Origin: Saccharibacillus sacchari DSM 19268
Lineage (GTDB): Bacteria; Bacillota; Bacilli; Paenibacillales; Paenibacillaceae
Length of the DNA stretch: 64,000 bases
Reading direction: 5' to 3'
NCBI RefSeq assembly: GCF_000585395.1
Contig: NZ_KK073875.1
Span: 2,604,017-2,668,016, forward strand
Shown here: one piece after another, positions 6,888 through 34,349 of the stretch
Layout of the letters: each line of letters opens with the position of its first letter
How positions within the stretch are numbered: the first letter of the stretch is position 1
Position numbers and translations under genes: made by a program
Notes under the pieces: generated by a model
Told to the model about the DNA's origin: nothing
Database searches by the model: none
What the model saw: only the letters and a program-made list of their open reading frames with translations

Positions 6888-6905
6888 GATCTTATAACCG
6901 AATAA

Positions 6906-7002
6906 GAATGCGGGTGCTGGATGAAGTCCGGCTGAGATGGAGACCTTGTGTGTCCGGACCGTTAATCTGATCCAGGTAATGCTGGCGTAGAGAATCCCAT
7001 TC
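6906..7002 (+). ncRNA. TPP riboswitch (THI element)
   Basis: The conserved THI-box landmarks occur in order: GCGGGTGC (6911-6918), GGCTGAGA (6930-6937), CTGATCCAGGTAATGCTGGC (6967-6986) and GTAGAGAA. Closing helix P1 pairs GAATGcGGG (6906-6914) with CCCATTC (6995-7001). It binds thiamine pyrophosphate and precedes a terminator hairpin and the thiF-thiE-thiS-thiG-thiO operon, so high TPP should end transcription early. Confidence 0.95.
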
Positions 7003-7011
7003 GAATTGTTC

Positions 7012-28758: not shown

Positions 28759-30042
28759 TCAATCGGCACCTTTGATTCGTTCCAGCGCTTCCGCCGGGAT
28801 GAGCAGCTGCTCGCTTTTTTTCGTCATGTCCTTGAGCTGCACCTGCCCCGCTGCCGCTTCATTTTCGCCGATCAGAACCACCCAGCGAATCCCGCGAACC
28901 GACGCCGACGCCAGCGATTTTTTCAACTTTCGCCCGATCGGTTCGACACTTGTCCGAATGCCGTCTGCACGCAGCAGCGCGGCTGTTTCCAGCGCGGGCG
29001 CGATCATGTCCTCGCCGATCGGAACGATCAAAACCTGCGGCTGCGGCATCTGTGTCTCGCGTTCGGCCAGCATCGCCATGATCGACTCCATTCCGAACGA
29101 GAGGCCAACCGTCGGATACGCGATGTCCGGTCGTTCCACGAGCTGTCCGATGATGTTGTCATACCGTCCTCCTCCGCCCAGACTGGACGTGAAGCGGCCG
29201 GAAGCGTCGAAGATTTCGTAGACCGTTCCGGTATAGAAGGATAATCCTCTGGCGAGAAAAGGATCGAAACGGCAGACGGAGTCCAGTCCCAAGCGTTCCA
29301 GCAGCCCGGCGAGCGCCCGAGCTTCGTTTGCGCCTTCGTCGTTTTCCACGCCGCAGGATGTCACCCAGTCTTCAAACGTATCCACAGGCGCTTCGGTCAG
29401 GCGAACGATCGACTCGGCGACGGAGGCTGACAGTTCTTTGCCCGCCAACTCCCGCAGCACGCCGTCCCGCCCGATTTTGTCGAGCTTATCCAGCGTCAGC
29501 ATGACGGAGGAGCGCAGCTCTGTCGGTACGCCGAGGTATTCCAGCGTCTCGCCGAGCAGCTTGCGGTTGTTCCAGCGAATTACCGCCGGAATCTCCAGTC
29601 TGCGGAACGCTTCTGCGGCCAGCTGCATCAATTCCGCTTCCGCTTGCGGTCCGGCGATCCCCACGACGTCCGCGTCGCATTGCAGGAATTCGCGCAGCCG
29701 CCCTTTTTTGACCGGGCCGTCGCGGAACACTTTGCCGATTTCGTAGCGTTTGTAAGGGAATTCGATGCCGGGATTTAGCGCGACGACTTTGGCAAAAGGA
29801 ATCGTCAGATCGTAACGCAGTCCCAGCTTCCGCTCGCCCTGGTCGGTCAGTTGGTACATTTCTTTCAGGATTTCGTCGCCGCCCGCGTATTTCGAAGCCA
29901 GCAGATCCAACTCGTTCAGAATCGTGGAGCTCATCTCGTCAAAGTCGTACGCTTCGAACAGTTGTCGCAGCGTCGCCTCTACCTTCCGGCGTATCGCTTG
30001 CTCTTTTCCGAAAAAATCATATGTGCCTTTTACGTTTTGCAT
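28759..30042 (-). CDS. hisS: Histidyl-tRNA synthetase (HisS2-like) under a leader-peptide attenuator
   Basis: 427 residues from the ATG at 30042, preceded at 9 bases by AGAGAGG; two more distal starts overlap that site. Class II landmarks: motif 2 in RYEIGKVFRDGPVKKGRLRE, HisRS-specific ARGLSFYTGTVYEI and GGGGRYDNIIG, and motif 3 in TVGLSFGMESI. A complete C-terminal anticodon-binding domain (from PQVLIVPIGED) indicates a true synthetase rather than HisZ. Motif 2 differs from the usual FRYERPQKGR of Bacillus HisS, so this is probably a second, divergent HisRS. Its leader (30043-30289) contains a His-rich peptide frame and a terminator. Confidence 0.93.
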   Translation of the reverse strand: MQNVKGTYDFFGKEQAIRRKVEATLRQLFEAYDFDEMSSTILNELDLLASKYAGGDEILKEMYQLTDQGERKLGLRYDLTIPFAKVVALNPGIEFPYKRYEIGKVFRDGPVKKGRLREFLQCDADVVGIAGPQAEAELMQLAAEAFRRLEIPAVIRWNNRKLLGETLEYLGVPTELRSSVMLTLDKLDKIGRDGVLRELAGKELSASVAESIVRLTEAPVDTFEDWVTSCGVENDEGANEARALAGLLERLGLDSVCRFDPFLARGLSFYTGTVYEIFDASGRFTSSLGGGGRYDNIIGQLVERPDIAYPTVGLSFGMESIMAMLAERETQMPQPQVLIVPIGEDMIAPALETAALLRADGIRTSVEPIGRKLKKSLASASVRGIRWVVLIGENEAAAGQVQLKDMTKKSEQLLIPAEALERIKGAD

Positions 30043-30078: not shown

Positions 30079-30113
30079 AAAAAAACGCGCAGGACCTCTT
30101 GGTCCTGCGCGTT
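30079..30113 (-). terminator. Attenuator terminator upstream of hisS
   Basis: On the minus strand AACGCGCAGGACC (30113-30101) pairs perfectly with GGTCCTGCGCGTT (30096-30084) through a 4-base loop, then seven T. It stands 36 bases before the hisS start and after the leader ORF, so transcription must read through it to reach hisS. Confidence 0.9.
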
Positions 30114-30132
30114 TTGCTATGCCGCAGGGAGG

Positions 30133-30186
30133 CCAACGCGAGAAGCGTTAGCCCGCCCCGGATTTATTGCTCGGGGGTGCTAACGC
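30133..30186 (-). promoter_or_regulatory. Competing hairpins of the hisS attenuator
   Basis: In transcript order: segment 1 GCGTTAGC (30186-30179), segment 2 GCTAACGC (30152-30145), segment 3 GCGTTGG (30139-30133). Segments 1 and 2 pair over 8 bp with an inner CCCCG/CGGGG stem (30176-30172 with 30160-30156). Segments 2 and 3 can instead pair over 7 bp (one G-U). CGCGTT overlapping segment 3 (30140-30135) can also pair with AACGCG at the foot of the terminator. Segment 1 contains the leader stop codon. Confidence 0.65.
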
Positions 30187-30227
30187 TGCTTGTGATGATG
30201 AAGTTGAGTCGATAAGGTTGCCTGCAT
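30180..30227 (-). CDS. Histidine leader peptide of hisS
   Basis: A 15-residue frame MQATLSTQLHHHKQR ending in TAG, with AAGGAG at proper distance upstream of its ATG and a consensus promoter before it. Three successive His codons (30192-30200) lie just upstream of the 1:2 hairpin. If a ribosome stalls with its A-site on the first His codon, its leading edge would be near 30188, leaving segment 1 free; if it reaches the stop, it covers segment 1. This spacing is what an attenuator sensing charged tRNA-His needs. The peptide itself is probably non-functional. Confidence 0.75.
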   Translation of the reverse strand: MQATLSTQLHHHKQR

Positions 30228-30260
30228 GGTGACCCTCTCCTTCAGCATGAATTATGAACG

Positions 30261-30289
30261 ATTATAGCGATCCTCGCCGAAATAAGCAA
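30261..30289 (-). promoter_or_regulatory. Promoter of the hisS leader
   Basis: TTGCTT (30289-30284) and a perfect TATAAT (30266-30261) separated by 17 bases on the minus strand. The predicted start near 30254 lies 27 bases before the leader-peptide ATG. Confidence 0.85.
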
Positions 30290-33811: not shown

Positions 33812-34090
33812 ATGGCACAGGCTAACATTAATATTCGGGTAGACGAGGAAGTGAAAAAAGAAGCCGAGCTTCTATTCTCTGAACTTGGGTTGAACATGAC
33901 TACGGCAGTCAATATCTTTATCCGTCAGTCGATCCGTCAAGGCGGTATTCCTTTTGATATCACGACACAAACAGATGCTTTTTATAATCCGGCCAATATA
34001 AAAAGACTAAAGGAATCAATCAAGCAAATCGAAGAAGGAAATACAGTAACAAAAACCTTAAAGGACTTGGAAATTTCTGATCATGCGTAA
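33812..34090 (+). CDS. RelB/DinJ-family antitoxin
   Basis: 92 residues. The N-terminal ribbon-helix-helix is evident: INIRVDEEVKKEAELLFSEL, then GLNMTTAVNIFIRQSIRQGG with PFDI, the DinJ hallmark. The C-terminal half is charged and would wrap the toxin. It should repress its own promoter and neutralise the toxin encoded next, whose start overlaps its stop by 8 bases. The pair is AT-rich relative to its neighbours, which suggests recent acquisition. Confidence 0.9.
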   Translation: MAQANINIRVDEEVKKEAELLFSELGLNMTTAVNIFIRQSIRQGGIPFDITTQTDAFYNPANIKRLKESIKQIEEGNTVTKTLKDLEISDHA

Positions 34091-34349
34091 TCTGATTTTT
34101 TCAAGTTATGCGTGGGAAGATTATGTTTATTGGCAGACGCAAGACCGTAAGACGATAAAAAGAATCAACCAACTCATTAAAGATATTGAACGAGGCGGCT
34201 ATAAAGGAATCGGAAAGCCAGAGCCTCTTAAAGGTGAATTATCGGGATATTGGAGTCGACGAATTGATGATACGAATCGTATTGTTTATCGACTGACCGA
34301 ATCTTCGATTGAATTCTATGCTTTTCGTACTCATTATGGCGATCATTGA
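34083..34349 (+). CDS. YoeB/Txe-family mRNA-cleaving toxin
   Basis: 88 residues closely following the YoeB pattern: IFSSYAWEDYVYWQTQDRK, then IKDIERGGYKGIGKPEPLK, SGYWSRRIDDTNRIVYRL and a C-terminal HY. The catalytic Glu, Arg and His of YoeB are in place (GKPEPLK, WSRRID, RTHY). It is a ribosome-dependent endoribonuclease that slows translation under stress. YoeB usually pairs with a YefM-type antitoxin; here the partner is of RelB/DinJ type. Confidence 0.92.
   Translation: MRNLIFSSYAWEDYVYWQTQDRKTIKRINQLIKDIERGGYKGIGKPEPLKGELSGYWSRRIDDTNRIVYRLTESSIEFYAFRTHYGDH

Follow-up and report, generated by a model that had tools for sequence, protein, structure and literature searches.

A probable histidine leader-peptide attenuator, predicted to be ON by default, upstream of an auxiliary histidyl-tRNA synthetase gene in Paenibacillaceae

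In the proteobacterial his and trp leaders, the rule is that a ribosome stalled by starvation masks the first RNA segment and another structure antiterminates, while RNA that is not translated is terminated. In Streptomyces, the gene of an auxiliary tryptophanyl-tRNA synthetase (TrpRS) is subject to ribosome-mediated attenuation. In bacilli, histidine leader peptides upstream of hisS* and hisZ were predicted in 2010 (Naville and Gautheret; PMC2965389), so that, going by this account, His leaders before hisS paralogs are a known kind of element. According to the text of a further study, His attenuators precede the his operons of the B. cereus group, Peptostreptococcaceae/Lutispora and Erysipelotrichales (PMC9413887), and an upstream ORF (uORF) motif before cysS in Rhodobacterales has been described as a proposed case of ribosome-mediated attenuation (PMC8632094).

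In this study, we analysed a leader located ahead of hisS2, an auxiliary histidyl-tRNA synthetase (HisRS) gene, within a 64,000-nt stretch of Saccharibacillus sacchari DNA (referred to below as the window). The first-pass annotation, made from the letters of this DNA, had described a His leader-peptide attenuator there. Our analysis confirmed that the observation is real, chance being excluded mainly because the leader is conserved across hisS2 loci. Taking the sequence, its conservation, the covariation and the predicted folds together, we consider it likely, with a probability of roughly 0.74, that the leader is a ribosome-mediated transcription attenuator of the auxiliary HisRS gene with ON as its default state.

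The leader element and the gene behind it

The whole feature lies on the minus strand, in the 5′ to 3′ order promoter, Shine-Dalgarno sequence, leader ORF, five segments and hisS2. The promoter, read off the sequence, consists of TTGCTT (30289-30284) and TATAAT (30266-30261) with a 17-nt spacer. It had been annotated as a consensus promoter, which holds for the perfect −10 box but not for the −35 box, where three of six bases match, and because of this mismatch the promoter scan did not report it. Among the 98 loci collected, 63 have a TATAAT 40-110 nt upstream of the element. The Shine-Dalgarno sequence GAAGGAG (30243-30237) and the 15-codon frame with three consecutive His codons were located on the minus strand as annotated. 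The leader ORF, MQATLSTQLHHHKQR, comprises 15 codons plus TAG (30227-30180) and has a conserved peptide ending; its His codons, CAT CAT CAC (30200-30192), form a run that ends three codons ahead of the stop. As judged from the letters, the locus thus has a translatable short ORF with a Shine-Dalgarno sequence ahead of a gene, tandem codons for the amino acid of the gene product (His, HisRS), and mutually exclusive stems with an intrinsic terminator before the gene, which together are the marks of a leader-peptide attenuator.

Segment 1 (30172..30186), placed by alignment, contains the leader stop codon. Covariation identifies segment 2 (30145..30160) as the partner of either segment 1 or segment 3, and covariation and folding together identify segment 3 (30123..30139) as the partner of segment 2 or, as a predicted antiterminator, of segment 4 plus the terminator loop. 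Segment 4 (30101..30115, by alignment) is the 5′ arm of the terminator and includes CGCAGG (30109-30104), the antiterminator partner of segment 3. Segment 5 (30082..30096) is the 3′ arm according to the terminator scan and the alignment, and the T7 tract of the terminator, found by the scan and by reading, occupies 30085-30079. The loop of the terminator together with its first arm bases reads GAGG (30095..30098), and its capture by the CCTC of segment 3 (30132-30129) is suggested by covariation among hisS2 leaders and predicted in the window RNA. Segments 1, 3 and 5 are alike and segments 2 and 4 resemble their complements, so that 1:2, 2:3, 3:4 and 4:5 are all able to pair. The first hairpin with the stop codon in its arm (1:2) and the alternative hairpin (2:3) are present as annotated, and so is the terminator with its T7 tract just before hisS2, although its stem, given as 13 bp, counts 15 pairs in the scan. 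The fold of 30250-30070 is more stable than those of dinucleotide shuffles by 5.9 SD, and none of 200 shuffles equals it.

In an Rfam search of the leader, no family reached its gathering score, and neither the T-box (RF00230) nor His_leader (RF00514) was among its 13 matches at E≤5; the covariance model of RF00230 had no match there, in agreement with the annotated lack of a T-box. The RF04312 trpB motif (26.9 of 59 bits) and Thr_leader (20.6 of 55 bits) were rejected as identities, since their full-length matches are weak and resemble the leader in shape only. Elsewhere, the window contains a TPP riboswitch (RF00059, 60 bits; 6900-7010, plus strand) and two overlapping small ORFs (33812-34349, plus strand) which we take to resemble a RelB/DinJ-YoeB-type antitoxin-toxin pair.

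The gene behind the leader, hisS2 (28759..30042, minus strand), encodes 427 aa from its ATG. Its product scores 569 bits with NCBIfam NF009085 (cut-off 540) and 331 bits with TIGR00442 (cut-off 287), and it aligns with a solved HisRS along its length, including the stretches RYDLT, REFLQCDAD and ARGLSFYTG, which we take to be core motifs of HisRS. On this basis, hisS2 reads as the gene of a real HisRS; one ortholog (L004) is 92% identical. A second hisS of the genome scores 489 bits with TIGR00442 (cut-off 287) and is preceded by a T-box (RF00230) that scores 56.3 bits (E=1.5e-11), short of the curated 93 bits. Because of this other, T-box-preceded hisS, we regard hisS2 as a spare. The genome has a third, weaker hisS match (L003), with 23% identity and one internal stop.

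Conservation of the leader and covariation of its segments

hisS2 was found at E≤1e-100 in 115 of 394 sampled genomes of the Paenibacillaceae. Among the 150 leader matches listed, each of these 115 genes had a leader upstream on the same strand, with a gap of 29-756 nt between the element and the hisS2 protein match; the covariance model had been built from 29 distinct hisS2 loci and was thus trained on hisS2 leaders, partly of the same species, so that 115 of 115 does not amount to a blind motif test. What is informative is that no hisS2 at this threshold lacked a leader among the 394 genomes. At E≤0.001, the model matched in 151 of the 394 genomes, a few of these matches being doubtful, such as that of G142, which rests mainly on the terminator. 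Many second matches in 30 re-searched genomes were antisense to the palindromic terminator and were not counted as copies.

Among the 35 loci first inspected, the peptide ending, the stop and the segments are common to the 29 distinct hisS2 loci. The remaining six were two duplicates (L026, L027), L002, L003, L024 (a 33% identical Saprospiraceae match without the leader) and L035 (with an HHH leader of another kind). The later alignment A4 comprises 90 leaders, of which 60 belong to hisS2, intact or broken, and 30 to other genes. Remnants or chance matches (L074, L085 and L094-L098; seven of the 98 loci) and duplicates (L036, L037, L043, L049, L055, L060 and L064) were left out of this and of an 84-row alignment, the duplicates L026, L027, L056, L058, L065 and L088 and the antisense L066 having been removed earlier; the alignments were made without L110 and L112-L118, which were fetched later. 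The leader alignment that the first-pass annotation had suggested as a check shows that conservation extends to the His codons, the position of the stop within segment 1, the stems and the terminator.

Counted from the first in-frame stop, His occupies positions −6, −5 and −4 in 76, 82 and 70 of the 90 leaders, respectively. The replacements are mostly Tyr (12, 6 and 6) and Phe (12 at −4), as in the endings LQQYYHFNQR, FHYYKMR and DYYYHE. In 89 of 90 leaders, a conserved CGT/CGG codon is directly followed by TAG or TAA; the frames of L075 and L090 end two codons earlier, and that of L014 runs on for three more codons, to the end of segment 1. Gln at −8, two positions ahead of the His run, is present in 70 of 88 leaders; it lies outside the stems, and no pairing role was seen for it.

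In comparison with shuffles, which ignore the relatedness of the leaders, three helices showed more doubly changed pairs than any of 300 shuffles in the 90 leaders: 1:2 (93.1% of cells paired; 75 doubly changed versus 28.9 in shuffles), 2:3 (89.3%; 24 versus 11.7) and 4:5 (93.7%; 7 versus 1.8). Helix 3:4 is paired in 96.5% of cells and, since it hardly varies, has a single doubly changed pair, a G-C to A-U change in L119, a value reached by 41 of 300 shuffles; over the same leaders, it has no excess of pairing (65 of 300 shuffles reach it). With the first 29 leaders alone, an excess over the shuffles was seen for 1:2 plus 3:4 and not for 2:3 plus 4:5.

The first-pass annotation had named as a weakness of its reading that the 6-bp antiterminator is much weaker than the terminator. 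Two results go some way to meet this objection. The base at A4 column 110, in the 5′ arm of the terminator, forms its antiterminator pair with segment 3 in all 90 leaders (UA 77, UG 13), but its terminator pair in 29 of 88. With antiterminator pairing universal and terminator pairing restricted in this way, selection at this base appears to serve 3:4 rather than the terminator, and we conclude from the aligned leaders that the 6-bp antiterminator is under selection. In addition, the 60 hisS2 leaders show covariation between segment 3 and two loop bases of the terminator; 118 of 120 cells are paired, a value that none of 2000 shuffles reaches. The segment 3/loop combinations are CCTC/GAGG (49), CCTC/GGGG (4), CCTC/AAGG (2), CCCC/GGGG (2) and single cases of CCCT/AGGG, CCTA/TAGG and CCCA/TGGG; in all five hisS2 leaders with an altered segment 3, the loop matches. 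Together, the arm and loop pairings suggest that segment 3 holds the loop as well as the 5′ arm. The capture of the loop is not a general feature, since among the 30 copies before other genes its two columns are paired in no more than 9 and 13, respectively. The part of the objection that stands is that, in the complete window RNA, the terminator is still the preferred structure.

Proposed switching and competing explanations

We propose that, as RNA polymerase makes the leader RNA, a ribosome would translate the leader ORF. If charged His-tRNA is scarce, through starvation or an inhibited primary HisRS, the ribosome would stall on the first His codons with its leading edge short of segment 1, so that 1:2 could pair and leave segment 3 free. 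Free segment 3 would pair with the terminator 5′ arm (CCUGCG/CGCAGG) and, in hisS2 leaders, additionally with the terminator loop (CCUC/GAGG), the terminator would be slow to nucleate, and hisS2 would be transcribed. If His-tRNA is plentiful, the ribosome would reach the stop codon and cover segment 1, 2:3 (about 15 bp) would pair and use up segment 3, and the terminator would form. Since segment 1 includes the stop codon and the terminator is shifted downstream by one segment, it is a ribosome at the stop that masks segment 1, and untranslated RNA is predicted to be ON. From this geometry and the modelled folds, we infer a default-ON polarity, the reverse of that of the E. coli his and trp leaders.

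To model the ribosome, the RNA was masked up to 9 nt beyond the first A-site nucleotide, an assumed footprint, and folded at a length that includes no more of segment 5 than its first arm bases (the decision point). In the window RNA, the probability of loop capture was 0.89 naked, 0.96 with the ribosome on His1, 0.86 on His2, 0.04 on His3 and 0.00 on the stop, and the number of terminator pairs was 0.04, 0.11, 0.38, 2.71 and 3.86, respectively. The corresponding means for the 60 hisS2 leaders were 0.50, 0.71, 0.69, 0.17 and 0.00 for loop capture and 0.30, 0.33, 0.40, 2.25 and 3.21 for terminator pairs. Given the loss of loop capture on His3, stalls on His1 or His2 alone fit the model. Naked RNA holds off the terminator longer than stop-masked RNA in 82 of 84 leaders; in the 30 leaders of other genes, the terminator nucleates (two pairs) at the stop in only 10. 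The masked folds reproduce the switching logic of the first-pass annotation, in which an early stall gives 1:2 with segment 3 free and a ribosome at the stop gives 2:3 and the terminator; comparison and modelling thus support its mechanism.

Once segment 5 is complete, the window RNA prefers the terminator whether naked, masked on His2 or masked on the stop, and the stop mask shifts the cross-over to the terminator from 8 to 6 nt of segment 5, no more. The full minimum-energy fold retains 3:4 in 44 of 84 leaders naked, in 50 on His2 and in one on the stop; the 40 naked folds without 3:4 include those of L006 and L020, which consist of 2:3 plus the terminator. With the terminator preferred at equilibrium, antitermination in the window and in about half of its relatives would have to be kinetic. 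When the RNA extends no further than segment 4, 14 of 54 hisS2 leaders contain 2:3 even when naked, and under the stop mask 3:4 persists in 32 of 54 hisS2 leaders and 25 of 30 others. In L007 and L081, two of six folds displayed, the composite antiterminator abuts the U tract and might itself terminate.

These folds bear directly on the classical polarity, in which the His-stalled ribosome would mask segment 1, another structure would antiterminate and untranslated RNA would be OFF. It has the precedent of the proteobacterial his and trp leaders, and both the preference for the terminator with a stall on His3 and the terminator in the complete naked window RNA are in its favour. However, masking segment 1 yields 2:3, which does not touch the terminator, so that starvation would turn hisS2 OFF, and the His1 and His2 codons start 14 and 11 nt before segment 1. 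We consider it unlikely that the leader works in this way.

The peptide itself invites two further explanations. The ending Q-x-HHH-K-x-R might arrest the ribosome through the exit tunnel, making the leader a sensor of its nascent peptide or of a drug rather than of uncharged tRNA, and the frequent Gln at −8 outside the stems would suit such a role, as would the Gln that often precedes the His run in unrelated leaders of other families (FLQQHHH, LSQQHHH). Against this, the Arg codon is fixed by stem 1, residue −3 is variable (among others K, E, G, N, H and T) and YYHF is found in six leaders, which makes an arrest peptide improbable in our view. The Tyr and Phe codons of a subset of leaders, which account for most of the substitutes at −6, −5 and −4, could also mean that the sensor is not strictly one of His and responds to aromatic aminoacyl-tRNAs or to general translation speed; given the prevalence of His at these three positions and the HHH ahead of a HisRS gene in the window, we give this very little credence. 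That the leader senses queuosine tRNAs is speculation. Attenuation through stalling on the first His codons, with a default-ON polarity, is the reading that we prefer.

Other genes behind the leader and relation to known attenuators

The selection of the 98 loci was not random, since it partly favoured weak or second copies; the gene next to the leader, as classed by tblastn, was hisS2 in 60 (seven duplicates), a Nudix hydrolase in 19, a HisRS-like gene in five, a gene for a 123-143 aa protein in three and without class in 11. On reading, the unclassed loci comprised a HisRS-like gene (L105), an arylamine N-acetyltransferase gene (PF00797; L090), the start of an hisS2 whose rest is gone (L050), an S66 peptidase gene (L086) and seven remnants or chance matches. 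The S66 peptidase was rejected as a target because it sits behind the apparent start of a lost Nudix gene. In some loci, the leader is intact and hisS2 is broken: L109 and L120 retain a piece of its start and the C-terminal part, in L122 it is interrupted, and L123 has a C-terminal piece recognized by eye, without a tblastn match.

The Nudix hydrolase has about 155 aa (L069-L072, L075-L079, L083, L084, L091-L093 and L099-L103) and was assigned by PF00293 (E=1.6e-11 for one partial sequence). It has no obvious tie to histidine, and the gene in L083 reads as broken. The HisRS-like proteins of 260-300 aa (L080-L082, L104, L105 and L107) stand behind leaders with YYHF, that is, one His, two Tyr and one Phe; their label derives from a match of one copy to NF009085 at E=7e-4, far under the cut-off, and from reading by eye, and another copy had no Pfam match. 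In five of these six loci, those with their flanks read, a gene that looks methyltransferase-like by eye follows. The 123-143 aa protein (L067, L068 and L073) reads RFHGNY...PAGIF...AVTWFK in L067, and this copy had no match in Pfam or NCBIfam.

Across the class Bacilli, the leader model matched in 20 of 398 genomes, three of them outside the family: L119 has hisS2 behind its leader, L111 is without hisS2 in the stretch read, and the match in G672 was judged to be chance. Other families gave 22 hisS2 matches at E≤1e-85. In all 19 of the loci read, a short ORF with clustered His codons lies upstream, and in 18 the leader RNA differs in sequence. Seventeen loci of one other family (L138-L152, L154 and L155) have a second, unrelated leader type (FLQQHHHT/G etc.), whose His codons could apparently pair with a GUGGUG stretch further down and which, judged by this pairing, may switch differently. 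In these 17 leaders, 1:2 shrinks from 15.7 to 8.9 bp under the stop mask and 2:3 grows to 5.2 bp, and 3:4 stays (13.9 on His1, 13.5 on the stop). Since 3:4 persists, we do not extend the five-segment model to them.

It is a tentative suggestion, and one we hold to be rather doubtful, that the leader represents a transferable default-ON class of this family with five segments and a loop-capturing antiterminator, serving a small regulon for failed histidyl-tRNA charging that comprises a diverged spare HisRS, the Nudix hydrolase, HisRS-like remnants and the 123-143 aa protein. More speculatively, such a regulon may protect against a natural inhibitor that targets HisRS; the literature at title and abstract level gave no lead to such a compound. 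If the proposal is true, two HisRS genes in one Firmicutes cell are under two different RNA sensors, a T-box and a leader peptide, and there is a leader attenuator which is ON by default and induced by blocking leader translation, opposite to the textbook case. The module before Nudix and other genes would then be an entry to the genes needed when histidine charging fails, and the functions of these leader-linked genes would become testable.

Like the proteobacterial his and trp attenuators (RF00514 etc.), the leader combines tandem regulatory codons, alternating stems and an intrinsic terminator, but here the stop is in segment 1, the terminator comes one segment later and RF00514 is unmatched. 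With the Streptomyces TrpRS attenuator it shares an auxiliary synthetase and a leader peptide, the amino acid there being Trp and the phylum Actinobacteria. The predicted leaders of bacilli likewise have a His-rich short ORF and a terminator before a hisS paralog, with a T-box at the main hisS; 'Paenibacillus' does not occur in the main text of that study, and its passages on these leaders give no segment architecture, polarity or targets beyond hisS* and hisZ (PMC2965389). The his-operon attenuators of Firmicutes share three to five consecutive His codons before the attenuator stems but precede biosynthesis operons, 'hisS' being absent from the text on them (PMC9413887), and the cysS uORF, as described, also places tandem cognate codons before an aminoacyl-tRNA synthetase gene, but for Cys and in alpha-proteobacteria (PMC8632094). 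In the literature at title and abstract level, with subscription papers mostly outside, we found no system with this architecture, polarity and Nudix targets. The architecture, the polarity and the use before multiple genes thus look new, and the strongest of the new claims are the loop-capturing antiterminator suggested by covariation, the default-ON polarity to which geometry and folding point, and the presence of one module before several genes.
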